DNA of 64,000 bases from Hwanghaeella grinnelliae (GTDB taxonomy: Bacteria; Pseudomonadota; Alphaproteobacteria; UBA8366; Aestuariispiraceae), in the NCBI RefSeq assembly GCF_004005845.1, contig NZ_SADE01000001.1:372001-436000 (forward strand), in the 5' to 3' direction. Positions within the stretch are counted from its first letter, which is position 1; each line of letters begins with the position of its first letter. The notes beneath the pieces were generated by a model. It was not told the DNA's origin, did no database searches, and saw only the letters and a list, made by a program, of their open reading frames with translations. A program made the translations under genes and the position numbers. This document shows positions 1 through 24,707 of this stretch, piece by piece.

Positions 1-654
1 AAGGCGAATCCCGGCCGAATAACCTATCCCGCGCCGCCGGACTTCACCGGCACGACCTTCCTGAAGCAGGCCTTGTACGAATTGGTCGAGAACCCTGTAG
101 ATCTCCTGAGCCCGGCCGGCGAAAATTTCGATGCGGTCACCGCGCCGCTCTGGAATTATCTGGATGCGCTATCGCCGCTGATGTGGCGCGAAGGCCGTGA
201 TTTTCCAAAAACCGGCACGGCCCAACGGCAATTGCTGAGCGATGGGGCGGTGGATCTCTCCTATTCGTTCAATATCGGGGAAGCCTCCTCGGCGATTGCC
301 GAAGGATTGCTGCCCGATACGGCGCGCACTTATGTCCTGGATGGGGGAACGATTGGAAACACCCATTTCGTGGCCATTCCGTTCAATGCGGCACATAAGG
401 ACGGTGCCATGGTTGTGGCGAATTTCCTGCTGTCGCCCGAAGCCCAGGCCCGGAAAGCGCATCCCGATATCTGGGGCGAACAGACGGTCCTGTCCATGGA
501 CCGTTTATCCGATGACGACCGGGCTTTGTTCGAAAACTTGCCACGCGGCGTCGCCACCCTGAGCGAAACGGATTTGGGCAAAACCCTGCCGGAACCGCAT
601 CCGAGTTGGATGGTGCGGATTGAGGAGGCTTGGCTCAAACGGTACGGCAGTTGA
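1..654 (+). CDS. ynjB: ABC transporter substrate-binding protein, YnjB-like (5' truncated)
   Basis: The reading frame is open from base 1, so the N-terminus and any signal peptide lie outside the window; about 217 C-terminal residues are present. The product would be the periplasmic solute receptor of an ABC importer. The assignment rests on residues such as WREGRDFPKTGTAQRQ and LSYSFNIGEASSAI, which resemble YnjB, and on the next two genes being clear YnjC- and YnjD-type partners. The substrate of YnjBCD systems is not established, and nothing here reveals it. The stop at 652-654 lies about 40 bases before the preferred start of the permease gene, so the three genes form an operon. Confidence 0.8.
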   Translation, partial: KANPGRITYPAPPDFTGTTFLKQALYELVENPVDLLSPAGENFDAVTAPLWNYLDALSPLMWREGRDFPKTGTAQRQLLSDGAVDLSYSFNIGEASSAIAEGLLPDTARTYVLDGGTIGNTHFVAIPFNAAHKDGAMVVANFLLSPEAQARKAHPDIWGEQTVLSMDRLSDDDRALFENLPRGVATLSETDLGKTLPEPHPSWMVRIEEAWLKRYGS

Positions 655-694
655 GGCATCGTGCCGGCAGCGTTGCGCCGTCAGGGTTGCAGCC

Positions 695-2383
695 GTGACC
701 TTCCTGCCCGCCGCGCCATGGGTCACGTTGGCCGTCTTCTTGCTTCCGGTATTGGCCGGTTTGGCGGGCGCCGTACTGCCGGCCTTCGGTTATCTGCCGG
801 CTCTTGACGGGACCGATGCCTCTTTAGATCCGTGGCGGCGGTTGCTCGATTATCCGGGCTTCGCAGGATCCCTGTGGATGAGCTTGTGGACTGGCTTTGC
901 GGCGACCATGATTTCCTTTGCCTTGGCCATCGGCTTCGCGGCGGCGTGGCGGGGAACCCGCGTCTTCCGAAGTTTGCAGCGTCTTATCGCACCGTTGCTG
1001 TCGGTACCGCATGCCGCCGTCGCGCTGGGTATGCTCTTTCTGCTGGCGCCCAGCGGCTGGCTGCTGCGCGCCGGCTCCCCCTGGGCCACGGGCTTCGTTC
1101 GTCCTCCGGATTGGGCGACGGCACCCGACCCGTACGGCATCGTTTTCATACTGGCGTTGGTGGTGAAGGAAACGCCTTTCCTCTTCCTGATGACCGTTGC
1201 GGCCCTGAACCAGGTGCGGGAACGAGAAATCGTGACCACCGCCCGGACATTGGGGTATGGGCCGGCGACGGCTTGGTTGAAATGCGTCCTGCCGTTGGTT
1301 TATCCGCAATTGCGTTTGCCGGTCTACGCGGTCCTGGCATTCTCCCTGTCGGTCATCGATGTCGCCCTGGTTCTAGCGCCTGCCACAAACCCGCCGCTTG
1401 GCGTGTTGATCCTGCGTTGGTTCAACGACCCGGATTTGGGATACCAATTCGTGGCCGCCGCCGGGGCCGTGACGCAATTGGCGGTCGTTGCCGCAGGCAT
1501 CGTGGTTTGGTGGGGGGTCGAGCGCCTTGTAGGCGCGATGGGCCGTCGATGGGCTTCTGCCGGGGACCGGGCCGTTCTGGACCGGCCTGTGGCGGTTTTC
1601 TCCCTGGCGGGAACGGGTGTTCTTTGGTTTCTCGGCGCGGGGAGCCTGTTGGGCATGGCGGTTTGGTCGATGGCGCGCCAGTGGCGCTTTCCCGATACCT
1701 TGCCCAGCGAATGGTCGCTGATGAATTGGATGCGGCGGGGGGAAACACTGATCGGGTTGGGTGGCACGACCGTAACGGTCGGTTTGATCAGCGCGGGAAT
1801 CGCGTTGGTCCTGGCCGTTGCTTGCTTGGAACATGAAAAGCGGGACGGTTTGAAGCCGACGGCCCGCGCCCTCTGGCTGCTCTATATCCCCTTGCTTGTG
1901 CCGCAAGTCGCCTTCCTGTTCGGGGCGCAGGTGCTGCTGGTGACGGCGGGAATCGACGGTGGCTGGACTGCTTTGATATGGGCGCATCTGCTGTTCGTTC
2001 TGCCTTATGTTTTTCTATCATTGTCGGATCCGTTCCGGTCGCTGGATGAACGGTATCGCACGACGGCTTTATGCCTCGGCCTGCGTCCTTCCGCGGTTTT
2101 CCGGCGCGTAACCTTGCCCTTGCTGCTGCGGCCGATCCTCGTTGCCTTCGCGGTCGGGTTCGCAGTAAGCGTCAGTCAATATCTGCCTACGGTTTTTGCA
2201 GGCGGTGGGCGGTTGGAAACTTTGACGACGGAGGCGGTTTCCCTGGCCGGCGGTGGGGATAGACGTTTGATCGGCATGCTCGTCTTCGCTCAATCGGTAT
2301 TGCCTTTCGTTGCATTTCTGCTTGCTGCCGCCTTACCTGCATGGGCGTTTCGAAACCGAGCAGGCTTGCGGGGACTGACATGA
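695..2383 (+). CDS. ynjC: Fused two-domain ABC transporter permease, YnjC-like
   Basis: This is an inner-membrane permease of about 562 residues in which two permease domains are joined in one chain, as in YnjC. Two EAA-type loops are visible: TARTLGYGPATAWLKCVLP in the first half and TALCLGLRPSAVFRRVTLP in the second. Each contacts the ATPase. Many hydrophobic segments flank both loops. I prefer the GTG at 695, which has an AGGG about eight bases upstream and leads straight into the first membrane segment. A TTG at 620 would add 25 polar residues and overlap ynjB. The stop overlaps the ynjD start (ATGA). Confidence 0.85.
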   Translation: MTFLPAAPWVTLAVFLLPVLAGLAGAVLPAFGYLPALDGTDASLDPWRRLLDYPGFAGSLWMSLWTGFAATMISFALAIGFAAAWRGTRVFRSLQRLIAPLLSVPHAAVALGMLFLLAPSGWLLRAGSPWATGFVRPPDWATAPDPYGIVFILALVVKETPFLFLMTVAALNQVREREIVTTARTLGYGPATAWLKCVLPLVYPQLRLPVYAVLAFSLSVIDVALVLAPATNPPLGVLILRWFNDPDLGYQFVAAAGAVTQLAVVAAGIVVWWGVERLVGAMGRRWASAGDRAVLDRPVAVFSLAGTGVLWFLGAGSLLGMAVWSMARQWRFPDTLPSEWSLMNWMRRGETLIGLGGTTVTVGLISAGIALVLAVACLEHEKRDGLKPTARALWLLYIPLLVPQVAFLFGAQVLLVTAGIDGGWTALIWAHLLFVLPYVFLSLSDPFRSLDERYRTTALCLGLRPSAVFRRVTLPLLLRPILVAFAVGFAVSVSQYLPTVFAGGGRLETLTTEAVSLAGGGDRRLIGMLVFAQSVLPFVAFLLAAALPAWAFRNRAGLRGLT

Positions 2384-19697: not shown

Positions 19698-21752
19698 TCA
19701 GACTGCTTTTCCGACACCGGCGGCGGACATCGCCTCTTCCATCAGGCGGGCATCTTTTTCCAAGCGGAACGGGTTCGCATGCCGGATCCATTCCAAGATC
19801 TCCCCCTCTACCGGTTGTCGTCCACCCAGGACTTGAGTGGAGAAGTCCTCATGGAAGCGCGCCGCATAAGTCCTGGCACGGGCCATGTCGCCTTCCATTG
19901 CGTAGTCGGCGGCAAGGAAAGCAAGGGTGTCCGGATAGGCTTTCGGCGATCTTTCCCGGATTTTACGGGCTTCCGCAGCTTTGCCGGTCATGAACAGGCT
20001 GAGAGCGATGCCGCCGTAGTACCAGTCGGGCGGTGAGGGATGCAGCTCTATCGCCCGCGACGCCAGGTCATGCGCTCTGCGGTGATCGCCCAGGAAACTC
20101 CAGGACAGCGCCGCGGTCGCCAACATGTCCGTCCCATACGGATTCAACGCGTAGGACCGCTCAAGATAGCGTTGGCCGCGGTCATATTCACGACGGTAGA
20201 TATGGGCCCGACCGAGAAGGGTTTGTCCGACATGGTCAGCCTCCGACAGTCTTACGGCTTCGTCGGCATGGGCATAGGCTTTTTCGATCGCCTCGTTCCA
20301 ATTCGGCCAGGCATGCGCGCCCCATTCATTGAAATAGGCTAGCGACATCCCGCAATGTCCCCTGGCATAGTAGGGATCCAATTCCAGGGCCCGTTCGAAC
20401 AGCTTTTTTGCGCGACGGGTATGGTCTTCCGTGCCGTTCAACACCAGCGAGAACCCGGTCAGCCAACAATCGTATGGTGTCATTTCGGCGCTGGTTTTCC
20501 GTTGCGCCAATGTCAGCATCTCATGCTTCAACTGGTTGGTCACCGCCACGACAATGCGTTGGGTGAGCCTGTCCTGTGTATCGAATATGTCCTCCATGTC
20601 CACCGTGTACCGGTCCGACCAAAGCTGGACACCGCTTGCGACTTCGACCAGCTGCGCGTTCACGCGAACACGGTTGCCGGATATACGGATACTTCCATCC
20701 ACCACATAGTTCGCCATGACGCTGGCGCCGATTTTATTGCGTGGGATGCCGCTTTCGATCGCGGACAAGGCAGCGTTTCGCGCCTTGCATTTAATCTGGT
20801 GGAATTTCGGCAGATCTGATGTCAGATCTTCGAACAAACCTTCGCCCAATTGCGCTGCCTCCGCCGCGTCGGAAAGCAGGGAAAACGGTAGGACGGCGAC
20901 CATAGGGTGGCTTGGGCTTGGCGGTTTCGCCTCTGTTTTGGCCGAGGGGCTTCGTGGCTGTTCCGCTGGTTGCCGCGCGGCAACTGACGGCGCCGGCACC
21001 GTGCCGGCCGACGTGGTTGACGCCCCGATGGAAATCGCTTGGAAGAGCGCTTGGGTTTCGAAATCGGGGTTCACACCCAGTTCCCGTTCCAGGACGGAAA
21101 CGCAATTTCGGTACTGACGCAGGGCAAGCGTTCGGTTGCCCGCCTCAAGATGTAGTCGCATCAGGGACCGGTGCACGTCTTCGCGGATCGGGTCCAGGGA
21201 CAGGACCCAGTCCAGCGCGTCTATCGCAGCGCTATGGTTGCCTGCTTCACGGTATAGAGCGGCCAGGTCAACACCGACGGCTTCGGCTGCCCGCAGCAAA
21301 GTTTCCCGTGTTTCCTCCACCCAGGCCGCGAATTCGGGATCGGGCAGGCGCACGGTACCCAGGAATGGGCCCTTGTACAGCCGGCGGGCATTCTCCAGAT
21401 CCTCTATCGTTGAACCCTGTGCCGCGTTCCGAAAATCAACAACGTCGCACACGGCCGTTTCCGGGGGCATGAATACCCGGTCCTGCTGCGTCACCGGTGC
21501 CGGTGCGCCAGCCCCGCGTAAGGTGGTGCGCATGGTGAAAATCGCTTGCCGTAGCGAGCCGCGCCCCTGTTGTTCTTGGCGATTGCTCCAGAATAGAGCG
21601 GCGAGTCGATCTCGAGACGGGGCGGGTTGTTCGATCACGATCGGGACAAGCAGAAGCGCCGACTTCTTGGTGGGAAAGTCGATTGGCAATCCATCCGGTC
21701 CCGCAGAGGCGCGATATCCGCCCAGCAGATCCAGATGCAAGACCGCGCTCAT
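19698..21752 (-). CDS. SARP/BTAD-type transcriptional activator with TolB-like and TPR domains
   Basis: This is a 684-residue cytoplasmic regulator. Residues about 5-95 form an OmpR-type winged helix (LHLDLLGGYRAS, LIDFPTKKSALL-type start; GRGSLRQAIFTMRTTL). Residues 100-242 are the BTAD helical domain (EDVHRSLMRLHLEAGNRTLALRQY). A Pro/Ser/Ala-rich linker at 243-283 leads to a TolB-like domain (PMVAVLPFSLLSD; ANYVVDGSIRISGNRVRVNAQL), then TPR repeats from about 430. This set matches alphaproteobacterial relatives that in some cases also carry a cyclase domain; none is present here. The ATG at 21752 has GGAGCTGGGG upstream; a GTG at 21803 lacks a ribosome site. It is divergent from the DUF1127-TTC38 pair, its likely target. 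Confidence 0.86.
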   Translation of the reverse strand: MSAVLHLDLLGGYRASAGPDGLPIDFPTKKSALLLVPIVIEQPAPSRDRLAALFWSNRQEQQGRGSLRQAIFTMRTTLRGAGAPAPVTQQDRVFMPPETAVCDVVDFRNAAQGSTIEDLENARRLYKGPFLGTVRLPDPEFAAWVEETRETLLRAAEAVGVDLAALYREAGNHSAAIDALDWVLSLDPIREDVHRSLMRLHLEAGNRTLALRQYRNCVSVLERELGVNPDFETQALFQAISIGASTTSAGTVPAPSVAARQPAEQPRSPSAKTEAKPPSPSHPMVAVLPFSLLSDAAEAAQLGEGLFEDLTSDLPKFHQIKCKARNAALSAIESGIPRNKIGASVMANYVVDGSIRISGNRVRVNAQLVEVASGVQLWSDRYTVDMEDIFDTQDRLTQRIVVAVTNQLKHEMLTLAQRKTSAEMTPYDCWLTGFSLVLNGTEDHTRRAKKLFERALELDPYYARGHCGMSLAYFNEWGAHAWPNWNEAIEKAYAHADEAVRLSEADHVGQTLLGRAHIYRREYDRGQRYLERSYALNPYGTDMLATAALSWSFLGDHRRAHDLASRAIELHPSPPDWYYGGIALSLFMTGKAAEARKIRERSPKAYPDTLAFLAADYAMEGDMARARTYAARFHEDFSTQVLGGRQPVEGEILEWIRHANPFRLEKDARLMEEAMSAAGVGKAV

Positions 21753-21815
21753 GCCCCCCAGCTCCAAATGACCGCCCCCAATAGGATTTTGTTCAGAATA
21801 CACGATTTACCGCAC

Positions 21816-21856
21816 TTTTGACGACTTTTTGACAGGTTTTCACGGTCCGATGAAAT
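21816..21856 (+). promoter_or_regulatory. Candidate SARP-controlled promoter with heptamer direct repeats
   Basis: Three heptamers, TTTTGAC at 21816, TTTTGAC at 21827 and TTTTCAC at 21837, start 11 and 10 bases apart. The middle one overlaps a consensus -35 TTGACA (21829-21834), and TGAAAT at 21851 is a plausible -10 after a 16-base spacer, about seven bases past the last repeat. SARP activators are known to bind heptameric direct repeats of about 11 bp period close to the -10. It would drive the DUF1127 gene with a leader of about 120 bases. This is inferred from spacing and context only. Confidence 0.5.
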
Positions 21857-21985
21857 TTTTGTGACGGTACCGCAGACGTTTGTCTAACGGGGCATGTGAA
21901 TAGTCGGCGCATCGAAACGATCAAGAAAAATTTCAAGTGGGCGGGGCCGGCTAACTGAGGCCGGATAACCGCAAGGAGGTTTAAA

Positions 21986-22303
21986 GTGCAGAAAACAGAA
22001 TTTGCAGAATGGATAAGACAGACATTGTTCCCCGCGCAGATTGTGGAACCAGTGGGCAATGTCTCCCTTCATTACAGGGTGCGTACCAATGCGTCGCTGC
22101 ATGTCGGAAGTCTTGTTTCTGGGACAGTCGTCAGTGTTTGGACCGAGGTTGTGCGCTGGCATCGCGCCCGCCGGGCCGCTGCGGCATTGATGGCGTGCAG
22201 CGACACGATGCTCCGGGACATCGGTATCGACCGTTCGGAAATCAAGTCGGTCGTATACGACGGCGACCAAGGGCGTCGTCGCGGCCCGTTCGATTTCGAC
22301 TAA
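21986..22303 (+). CDS. DUF1127 (YjiS-like) domain small protein
   Basis: This is a 105-residue protein whose C-terminal part (RWHRARRAAAALMACSDTMLRDIGIDRSEI) is the DUF1127 motif, an Arg-rich helix followed by LxDIGI. In alphaproteobacteria, DUF1127 proteins are associated with RNA metabolism, nutrient stress and small-RNA turnover. The N-terminal 50 residues are not part of the motif. The GTG start at 21986 has a near-perfect AAGGAGG six bases upstream, so strong translation is expected. It is divergent from the SARP-like regulator and upstream of the TTC38 gene. Confidence 0.85.
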   Translation: MQKTEFAEWIRQTLFPAQIVEPVGNVSLHYRVRTNASLHVGSLVSGTVVSVWTEVVRWHRARRAAAALMACSDTMLRDIGIDRSEIKSVVYDGDQGRRRGPFDFD

Positions 22304-22314
22304 GCAAAGAAACC

Positions 22315-22348
22315 GGTGGCGCTAACGGAAATACATCCGGGCGCCACC
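22315..22348 (+). other. Nested hairpin between the DUF1127 and TTC38 genes
   Basis: A perfect 8-pair stem GGTGGCGC / GCGCCACC encloses an inner CGGA / TCCG stem. It starts 11 bases after the DUF1127 stop and is followed by TCTTCCCG, not a U-tract. It may protect the upstream message end or lower read-through into the TTC38 gene, giving unequal expression of the two. It is a weak terminator at most. Confidence 0.55.
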
Positions 22349-22397
22349 TCTTCCCGAAAATAGATCAAATTAGACAATCAATTGAGAGGACAGACGG

Positions 22398-23753
22398 ATG
22401 AAAACGGATTGTTATGGTGCTCCCGTGTCTTTTGACGACCAAAACGCGGTAGATGGTTTAAACGCTGCGCAGCGCAAATTCAGAGGGTTCTTCGGTGATC
22501 CGGTGGCGATGATTGATGCCGTGCTGGCGGAATATCCGGATTTTGTCATGGCGCATTGCTTCCGGGGCGGTCTCTTCGCAACCAGTTCCGAGGCGGCTTG
22601 TGTGGACGAAATCCGTGCCGCGATGCAGGCCATCGAGGAAAACTGGGCTGTGGCCAATGATCGTGAACGGGGTCACCACGCAGCCCTTGCCGCGTGGTCG
22701 GTGGGCGATTTCCACCGCGCGGCGAATACCTATGGGCGGGTTGCCTCGGCCTATCCACGTGACGCCATCGCGCTGCAATTCGCCCATCTTTGCGACTTCT
22801 TGAACGGCCATGCGACGATGTTGCGTGATCGTGTGGCGGGAATCCTGCCGCAATGGACCCCCGCCGACGAGGGATATGGGTATCTTTTGGGCATGAAGGC
22901 CTTTGGCCTTGAAGAAAGCGGCGCCTATGCCAAGGCGGAAGAAGCCGGTCGCCAAGCGGTCGATGCCGAACCCGGTGACGCATGGGCGGTTCACGCTGTT
23001 GCCCATGTTCTGGAAATGGAAGGCCGCCATGCGGAAGGCGCGCGCTGGCTGGAAAGCTCGGCCGACCATTGGTCGCAGGACAATTTTTTCGCCTATCACA
23101 ATTGGTGGCACCTTTCGCTCTATCTGTTGGAAACTGCCGACTATCAGCGCGCGATAGACCTGTATGATCAGGTCATCCGCACCACGCATTCGCCGGTGGC
23201 AATGGAAATGGTCGACGCGGTTGCACTGCTGTGGCGGCTGACGCTGCGGGGCGTCAATGTCGGTGATCGCTGGCAAGAGCTGTCGAAAACCTACGAGCAG
23301 ATGGAAATGGGCGGCTATTATGCCTTCAACGACATGCATGCGGTCATTGCCCATTCGGCGGCGGATCGCGCTTTCGCGGCGGAACGGTGCCTTGAAAAGA
23401 TGCGCGACGCCCTGCGTGGCCACGACACCAATGCCATGATGACGGCCGATGTCGGGTTGCCGGCGGCGGAGGCAATGCAGGCCTTCCTGAACGGCGACTA
23501 TCGCCAAACCATCGACAAACTCTATGCGGTGCGTGCGGTCTCCCACCATTTCGGGGGCAGTAATGCGCAGCGCGATATCTTGGGTGTCACGCTCGTCGAG
23601 GCGGCGATCCGGGACGGTCAGCGCGGGCTTGCGGTTTCGCTCGCCAACGAACGGATGGGGGCCAAGTCCAGCAGCCCAACCAACAGGATGTTCCTGGACC
23701 GTGCCCGTGCGGCTGCCAAGCCGGATTTGACGGTCATTGCCGAGGTCGCGTGA
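22398..23753 (+). CDS. TTC38-family tetratricopeptide repeat protein
   Basis: This is a 451-residue cytoplasmic protein made of helical repeats. It matches the tetratricopeptide repeat protein 38 (TTC38) family: AWAVHAVAHVLEMEGRHAEGARWLE and FFAYHNWWHLSLYLLE are hallmark segments, with early HHAALAAWSVGDFHRAA. The family occurs from bacteria to animals and has no established biochemical role. Conserved His and Trp cluster in the central repeats, which could suggest a binding site. The ATG at 22398 is preceded by GAGAGGA. It lies 94 bases after DUF1127 and probably shares its promoter. Confidence 0.85.
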   Translation: MKTDCYGAPVSFDDQNAVDGLNAAQRKFRGFFGDPVAMIDAVLAEYPDFVMAHCFRGGLFATSSEAACVDEIRAAMQAIEENWAVANDRERGHHAALAAWSVGDFHRAANTYGRVASAYPRDAIALQFAHLCDFLNGHATMLRDRVAGILPQWTPADEGYGYLLGMKAFGLEESGAYAKAEEAGRQAVDAEPGDAWAVHAVAHVLEMEGRHAEGARWLESSADHWSQDNFFAYHNWWHLSLYLLETADYQRAIDLYDQVIRTTHSPVAMEMVDAVALLWRLTLRGVNVGDRWQELSKTYEQMEMGGYYAFNDMHAVIAHSAADRAFAAERCLEKMRDALRGHDTNAMMTADVGLPAAEAMQAFLNGDYRQTIDKLYAVRAVSHHFGGSNAQRDILGVTLVEAAIRDGQRGLAVSLANERMGAKSSSPTNRMFLDRARAAAKPDLTVIAEVA

Positions 23754-23852: not shown

Positions 23853-24656
23853 TTAGCTATAGGGTGGCTGGTACCAGCCCTTGGGCGACTGCGTGAAGAT
23901 CTCGAACCCGTCCGCGGTAACGCCAATCGTATGCTCGAATTGGGCGGAAAGCTGGCGGTCTTTTGTGACGGCTGTCCAGCCGTCTTGCAGTATTTTCACG
24001 TCCCAGGTTCCGACATTGATCATCGGTTCGACAGTGAAGAACATGCCTTCTTCCAGAACGGCGCCCTGACCCGGTTCACCATAGTGAAGCACGCTCGGCG
24101 TATCGTGAAAGACCCGGCCGATGCCGTGGCCGCAGAAGTCACGAACGACGGAAAAGCGGTTGGCTTCCGCGTGCGACTGGATGGCATAACCGATATCGCC
24201 CAAGGTCGACCCCGGCTTTACCGTTTGAATGCCCAGCATCATGCATTCGTATGTAATTTGCGTCAGGCGCCGCGCCTTGACCGGAATCTTATCTCCGACA
24301 AGGAACATGCGGCTGGTATCCCCGTGCCACCCGTCGAGGATGACGGTGACATCGATATTGATGCTATCGCCTTCCTGAAGCTTTTTGGCGTCGTCGGGGA
24401 TGCCGTGGCAGACGACATGATTGATGCTGGTGCAGATCGACTTCGGAAACCCACGATAGTTTAGCGGGGCGGGGATGGCACCGTGCTCAACGATATAGTC
24501 ATGGCACAAGGTGTCCAAATGTCCCGTCGAGACGCCGGGGACAACATGCGGGGTGATGTAGTCCAGGACCTCGGCGGCGAGCCGGCCTGCCTTGCGCATC
24601 GCTTCGAATTCGGCGGCGCTGTGCAGCTTTATCTGGTTTCTAGCAGCGTGATTCAT
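23853..24656 (-). CDS. map: Type I methionine aminopeptidase
   Basis: This cytoplasmic dimetal enzyme removes the initiator Met. The 267-residue protein has the expected ligands and motifs: VCHGIPDD with the substrate His, INIDVTVILDGWHGDTSRMF with two metal Asp, FCGHGIGRVFHD, TVEPMIN and EHTIGV with the closing Glu. It lacks the N-terminal zinc-binding extension of some type Ic forms. An ATG at 24668 would add four residues; the one at 24656 has a weak GGA upstream. It follows sfsA by about 50 bases. Confidence 0.95.
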   Translation of the reverse strand: MNHAARNQIKLHSAAEFEAMRKAGRLAAEVLDYITPHVVPGVSTGHLDTLCHDYIVEHGAIPAPLNYRGFPKSICTSINHVVCHGIPDDAKKLQEGDSINIDVTVILDGWHGDTSRMFLVGDKIPVKARRLTQITYECMMLGIQTVKPGSTLGDIGYAIQSHAEANRFSVVRDFCGHGIGRVFHDTPSVLHYGEPGQGAVLEEGMFFTVEPMINVGTWDVKILQDGWTAVTKDRQLSAQFEHTIGVTADGFEIFTQSPKGWYQPPYS

Positions 24657-24707
24657 ATCAAATTCCATTGGTATCTTATGCCGGACATAGTGCGCCCAGT
24701 GAGTAAT

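Follow-up and report, generated by a model that had tools for sequence, protein, structure and literature searches.

Organization of the locus

The window – the whole 64,000-nucleotide stretch of Hwanghaeella grinnelliae DNA that was analyzed – encodes on its minus strand a SARP-like regulator (19698–21752) in which a winged helix and a BTAD domain (residues 1–245) are followed by a part weakly resembling TolB/FlgO and by TPR repeats. A sequence-only reading of this DNA had called the gene a SARP/BTAD-type regulator, and a domain search agrees (PF03704, E 1.8e-21); the protein is the sole PF03704 match in the genome at E 0.001. Matches to C-terminal domains fell under the cut-off (FlgO, E 0.0088; TolB_N, E 0.12). 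A profile built from 25 homologues matched AfsR (8hvr) at positions 3–242, across the winged helix and BTAD domain (E 4.1e-22), and also matched EmbR over these two domains. The arrangement characteristic of the SARP protein family – an N-terminal OmpR-type winged helix and then BTAD – is present.

Divergent from the regulator, on the plus strand, lie a gene for a small DUF1127 protein (21986–22303; PF06568, E 1.7e-11), which has a GTG start with AAGGAGG upstream, and a gene for a 451-amino acid TPR protein (22398–23753), which we take to be, and call, TPR38. Beyond this operon is a gene (23853–24668) whose product is presumably a methionine aminopeptidase. SARPs of Streptomyces regulate antibiotic gene clusters; among the neighbors of the regulator here, the domain scan identified a DUF1127 gene and a TPR gene, and the other open reading frames were only read by eye.

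The start codon of the regulator gene is very probably ATG 21752. A start at GTG 21803 was considered and rejected because similarity to the protein of a congener begins at the ATG and because the −10 element proposed below (21795–21800) lies downstream of 21803 on the regulator strand. The spacer between the regulator and the divergent operon therefore spans 21753–21985.

A row of phased heptamers in the spacer

Three direct repeats lie in this spacer – TTTTGAC (21816–21822), TTTTGAC (21827–21833), and TTTTCAC (21837–21843) on the plus strand – and their starts are 11 and 10 bp apart, so that the repeat row first noticed by the sequence-only reading is confirmed. On the regulator strand, the distal unit 1 (21837–21843) reads GTGAAAA with a C just before it (CGTGAAAA), unit 2 (21827–21833) reads GTCAAAA, and the proximal unit 3 (21816–21822) reads CGTCAAAA, which gives GTCAAA the place of a −35 hexamer. 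It is followed after 16 nt by a −10-like TATTCT (21795–21800, minus strand) that we regard as a candidate promoter element of the regulator. A possible fourth unit, the weak and degenerate CGGTAAA (21806–21812, minus strand), was read from the sequence and by the extension rule of our script; it keeps the 11-bp phase and separates the box from the −10. The minus-strand order is CGTGAAAACC-TGTCAAAAAGT-CGTCAAAAGTG, the weak unit CGGTAAA, and then TATTCT, which makes the box on the regulator strand CGTNAAA with a period of 10–11 bp. Two features of a SARP-type box are present: heptameric direct repeats with an 11-bp period and, as predicted in silico, a position that overlaps the −35 of the promoter to be controlled.

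No heptamer triple in the 233-bp spacer scores higher than 19 of 21 pairwise matches, a score reached in 2 of 3000 dinucleotide-preserving shuffles and in 1 of 274 tiles of the window. A search that tolerated ±1 base in each gap found the triple at a single place in the 5.3-Mb genome and nowhere in a backwards control. On the plus strand, TTGACA (21829–21834) and TGAAAT (21851–21856), the latter 7 bases past the last repeat and 16 past TTGACA, are located where they had been reported as a proposed −35 and −10 of the divergent operon. There was no Rfam match up to E 1 in 21000–23000. Neither strand of 21600–22100 yielded a terminator or a sigma-70 promoter at scan thresholds, and the promoter scan consequently favors neither side.

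Conservation in a congener

A search for related loci returned a single locus, apparently on a contig of G001 – the single congener compared, a MAG with 7% contamination in which the regulator gene is split over two contigs. Its regulator is 57% identical over residues 43–680 and 65% identical over residues 1–52. Upstream of the regulator start we found TTTTGAC-N4-TTTTGAC-N3-ACCTCAC, with the 11/10 bp spacing retained and GCGTGAG as the counterpart of unit 1. On the regulator strand, TATACT stands 16 nt from the last unit, the same distance as TATTCT in the window.

The surroundings differ. The DUF1127–TPR operon is absent at this regulator, and the next gene (485–1342, minus strand) is the counterpart of the window gene at 23853–24668 beyond the operon; four matches to TPR38-like genes lie elsewhere in the congener. 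TGAAAT is not kept, and TTGACA is outside any conserved plus-strand promoter. The proposal that the repeats serve a plus-strand TTGACA..TGAAAT promoter of the neighboring operon is not supported here: the hexamer pair is not kept, and the box is kept where the operon is missing.

Among the best matches listed from a search of 79 genomes, a BTAD regulator, DUF1127, and TPR38 occur in this order only in the source genome, and no other genome among the loci compared has a BTAD regulator divergent from a DUF1127–TPR operon. H. grinnelliae itself has three TPR38-type genes (22398–23753 of the window; G000:C4:700717–702042 and C4:750518–751783). In genome G011 (L036:2296–5697), a TolB/TPR regulator without BTAD and a TPR38 gene are transcribed divergently, which looks as though the gene pair had been retained while its DNA-binding half was lost or exchanged; no phased pair was seen by eye in that spacer. 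In genome G223 (L100:1–2190), a TPR38 gene converges on the gene of a BTAD regulator whose two halves both align at about 35% identity; this regulator gene has no box.

Phased GTNAAA pairs upstream of other BTAD genes

We compared the upstream DNA, at most 220 bp each, of genes that encode the same N-terminal part. Duplicates, fragments without the N-terminus, and loci with less than 60 bp upstream were dropped before counting (the rows dropped include L003, L017, L032, L035, L074, L076, L080, L087, L107, and L111), which left 40 distinct regions, the window and the congener included. In a count of 3072 five-base patterns, made with no motif chosen beforehand, each pattern was scored by how many regions had a pair of it spaced by 10 or 11 bp. 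GTNAAA ranked first (10 of 40 regions at 11 bp) and CGTNAA second (7). By distance, there were ten GTNAAA pairs at 11 bp, two at 10 bp, two at 20 bp, and four at 21 bp, with none at 6–9, 12–19, or 22–30 bp and zero to two at 31–34 bp. Of the 40 regions, only 7 had plain triples that beat their own shuffles (p ≤0.02), and in one of these the sequence was unrelated. The signal resides in the shared sequence.

A held-out set of 71 regions was drawn from a phylum sample of 398 genomes (28 new loci; 34 places listed, 4 without a locus), from one order of 61 genomes (29 loci; 46 places listed, 16 without a locus there), and from plasmids (14 of 24 records, the other ten being apparent near copies or Deinococcus/Herpetosiphon); the order of G225, with two genomes, contributed no new regions. 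GTNAAA pairs at 11 bp were present in 6 of the 71. Any other distance gave 0–2; the opposite strand had none, and neither did 140 control stretches taken far upstream or within genes. The top patterns were again GTNAAA and CGTNAA, with six regions each. These data support two points of the sequence-only reading: relatives keep the repeats, as a triple with 11/10 spacing in the congener and as phased pairs upstream of other BTAD genes, and 11-bp-phased repeats of the SARP type accompany BTAD regulators outside Actinobacteria.

A matrix trained on the 40 regions alone, seeded with a consensus from them and applied at a threshold of 10 bits, identified boxes in 22 of the 71 held-out regions, compared with 0.6 in shuffles, 1 in reverse complements, and 7 in reversed sequences. 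It identified none in 49 control upstream regions, which comprised those of 27 TPR38 genes and of 22 TolB/TPR open reading frames without BTAD. Retraining on all 111 regions gave the consensus GCGTNAAAANNGCGTNAAA, in which position 4 of the unit is free and positions 5–7 favor AAA. This matrix matched 59 of 111 regions at 10 bits (reversed, 13; reverse complement, 3; shuffled, 1.0) and 39 of 111 at 14 bits (4, 0, and 0, respectively), with one match among the 49 controls at 10 bits; the remaining 52 of the 111 BTAD genes fell below 10 bits despite being in the training set.

The 39 strongest boxes come from 19 family codes and from plasmids of Rhizobium, Sinorhizobium, Pararhizobium, Azospirillum, Salipiger, and Paraburkholderia, the last being the only betaproteobacterium among them. 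None of the nine phylum-sample regions from outside the class of H. grinnelliae reached 14 bits, and one (L135) reached 10 bits. When 109 of the proteins are placed on a quick tree, presence of the box switches 20 times, compared with 36.5 for shuffled labels: the box is inherited in part and often lost or gained. Among the matches listed in a search of open-licence literature, we found no published binding motif for alphaproteobacterial BTAD/SARP regulators. An operator shared by alphaproteobacterial BTAD genes would give these little-studied regulators a testable motif for finding their targets.

We also considered a wider regulon within the source genome. This was rejected: GTNAAA-N5-GTNAAA occurs six times, compared with five in the backwards control, and the five other places, judged from the list of open reading frames only, show no clear promoter of a related gene. 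Besides that of the window, GTNAAA pairs at 11 bp in this genome lie at L121:1501–1517 and L124:1501–1517.

Orientation of the box

Towards the regulator, TANNNT lies 16 or 17 nt past the last unit in 8 of the 39 boxes, three of the eight being related rhizobial plasmids, and every other position from 4 to 30 has zero to two matches. On the divergent side, TANNNT has two matches in total over 27 positions and 39 boxes. The looser T(A/G)NNNT occurs towards the regulator seven times at 17 nt and five times at 14 nt; on the divergent side its maximum is 3 of 39, at 7 nt, and the window is among these three by geometry. The window is not among the eight because our script counted from the weak fourth unit; counted from unit 3, its distance is 16 nt.

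The spacing of about 8 bp between the last repeat and the −10 reported for several SARPs is not matched towards the regulator, where it is 16–17 nt, and the 7 nt spacing exists only on the plus strand, where the hexamer is not kept in the congener. Retention of the repeats in the congener without the operon and the polarity of TANNNT towards the regulator together indicate that the promoter of the regulator itself is the primary site of these repeats. A plus-strand promoter as their main function was rejected on these same grounds: the congener has neither the operon nor the hexamer there, and TANNNT is nearly absent from the divergent side. What stands of the original suggestion of a SARP-type box in an alphaproteobacterium is the phased, BTAD-linked, conserved repeat row; the direction and target given there are not supported and are probably wrong, the −10-like hexamer pointing into the regulator gene.

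A candidate self-regulatory operator

Our preferred reading is that the repeats are a SARP-type operator for the adjacent BTAD regulator, placed in the regulator's own minus-strand promoter and likely mediating self-activation, with self-repression as the alternative; we put its probability at about 0.78. Similar repeat rows before related switch genes suggest that these regulators control their own genes, and the regulator encoded here presumably binds the repeats. Each 11-bp unit CGTNAAA(A)NNN would hold one protomer, with two or three neighboring protomers in all, and the recognition helices of their winged helices would enter consecutive major grooves along the same face of the DNA. The last unit would replace the −35 hexamer 16–17 nt before the −10 TATTCT, and the bound regulator could aid sigma region 4 or RNA polymerase where the promoter's −35 is poor, resulting in self-activation. 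This would be in the manner of the 'sigma adaptation' that the sections of the SARP literature drawn on here describe for AfsR (PMC10936776, PMC3367932, PMC10972967, PMC7040171, PMC4069834). The C-terminal part of the regulator may act as a signal sensor.

The sign of control is the less certain part of this reading. Self-activation appears the most likely because the last unit occupies the place of the −35 hexamer, and we lean towards activation over repression. The same overlap with the −35 position could instead allow the regulator to cover its own promoter and hold its level low. Many local regulators repress themselves, and self-repression is a possible, if less likely, outcome here. However, GTCAAA makes a poor −35, as expected where an activator is needed, and the cited sections describe SARPs that bind over the −35 as activators.

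That the repeats activate the divergent DUF1127–TPR operon, with TGAAAT (21851–21856) as its −10, seems unlikely, though such control could coexist with self-regulation if the repeats form a shared divergent operator. The 7 nt spacing comes near the 8 bp reported in those sections for several Streptomyces SARPs, a T(A/G)NNNT at this distance is the top count on the divergent side (3 of 39), and the arrangements in G011 and G223 hint at a link between the gene types. These points are outweighed by the congener, which keeps the repeats without the operon there and does not keep the plus-strand −10; by the two divergent-side TANNNT matches over 27 positions of 39 boxes; and by the other TPR38 genes, none of whose 27 upstream regions has the box.

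Another winged-helix regulator that prefers 11-bp repeats of the GTCA type, such as PhoB, might bind the box in place of the BTAD regulator. In Pho boxes, direct repeats of 11 bp built on a TGTCA core overlap the −35, and in period and position they resemble the row found here. According to the sections cited, PhoP and AfsR share one site in Streptomyces. PhoB and PhoP, however, are response regulators without BTAD, whereas the box goes with BTAD genes and does not occur in the 49 control regions upstream of TPR38 and TolB/TPR genes or in the 140 control stretches. Its free position 4 and the preference for AAA at positions 5–7, together with the lack of a general excess in the source genome (6 vs. 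5 in the backwards control), make a PhoB-type binder improbable. Finally, chance repeats without function, of the kind that A/T-rich patches near promoters give at random, are very improbable in view of the 2 in 3000 shuffles, the conservation in the congener, and the replication in held-out regions.

Comparison with known systems

As far as we know, work on SARPs has been almost confined to Actinobacteria. A proteobacterial comparison is the HilA box of Salmonella, a set of direct repeats with an 11-bp period and the hexamer TTKHAT, bound by a winged-helix protein with a BTAD-like part. The period and the type of binder are shared with the box described here, whereas the hexamer differs from CGTNAAA and the targets of HilA lie in a pathogenicity island. 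A survey, as far as the cited part goes, cautions that proteobacterial matches to SARP profiles may not be typical SARPs.

The systems below are compared as described in the sections of the literature cited above. AfsR of Streptomyces coelicolor, like the regulator here, combines a winged helix with BTAD, and its afs box likewise consists of 11-bp direct repeats that begin with CGT and overlap the −35 region. The repeat differs, CGTT(T/C)ATCGNN compared with CGTNAAA here, as do the C-terminal parts: AfsR has NOD and TPR, and the regulator here has TPR and a part weakly like TolB/FlgO. Centered at −29.5, the afs box acts on afsS, whereas the last unit here ends 16 nt before the regulator's own −10. 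If this −10 is set at −12 to −7, two units would be centered near −36; given this difference in register, contacts with the polymerase could not be identical to those of AfsR.

PimR, SanG, and PolR, of the SARP-LAL type, recognize two or three CGGCAAG heptamers with 4-bp spacers (3-bp in a secondary site), in which CG..AA is common with CGTNAAA; their C-terminal parts are unlike that of the regulator here. The PimR site lies between divergent regulator genes, much as the row here lies between divergent genes, but PimR acts on the neighboring pimM without touching its −35 region. The PieR box, in a Streptomyces antibiotic cluster, is upstream of the SARP's own gene pieR, as is the case here. 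The best reading is an operator that is SARP-like, self-regulatory, and widespread in Alphaproteobacteria, with a sequence, CGTNAAA, that would be new relative to the CGTT(T/C)AT of AfsR.

Recognition helix and repeat sequence

In the AfsR repeat CGTT(T/C)ATCGNN, R92 contacts the T of CGT and T88 contacts position 5, according to the same sources. A profile alignment places Q69 and T73 of the regulator at the positions of T88 and R92, and repeat position 5 is A in 94–97% of the matrix. A glutamine reading adenine at position 5 would fit this pairing. At 10 bits, R, K, or V occupies the T88 position in 0 of 57 boxed proteins and in 15 of 52 unboxed ones (Fisher, 4.4e-6; two gapped rows set aside), and at 14 bits in 0 of 37 and 15 of 72 (p 0.002).

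The shared operator also suggests a simple rule between a recognition-helix residue and a repeat base. On the quick protein tree, which has long branches, the residue changes only four times and there are two independent pairs on supported branches, so the link between residue and box is suggestive only; for the same reason we rejected the residue as an independent test of the box. We consider it somewhat probable that alphaproteobacterial BTAD regulators as a group share a self-regulatory, 11-bp-phased CGTNAAA operator at the −35. Such an operator would correspond, from ancient times, to the SARP boxes of Streptomyces, its sequence having shifted as the recognition helix did (T88 to Q; position 5 from pyrimidine to A).

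On three Microvirga plasmids (L190, L191, and L192), F replaces Q in the recognition helix, and the units, about 70–95 bp upstream of the regulator start, read GCGTTAG/GCGTGAG in place of GCGTNAAA.
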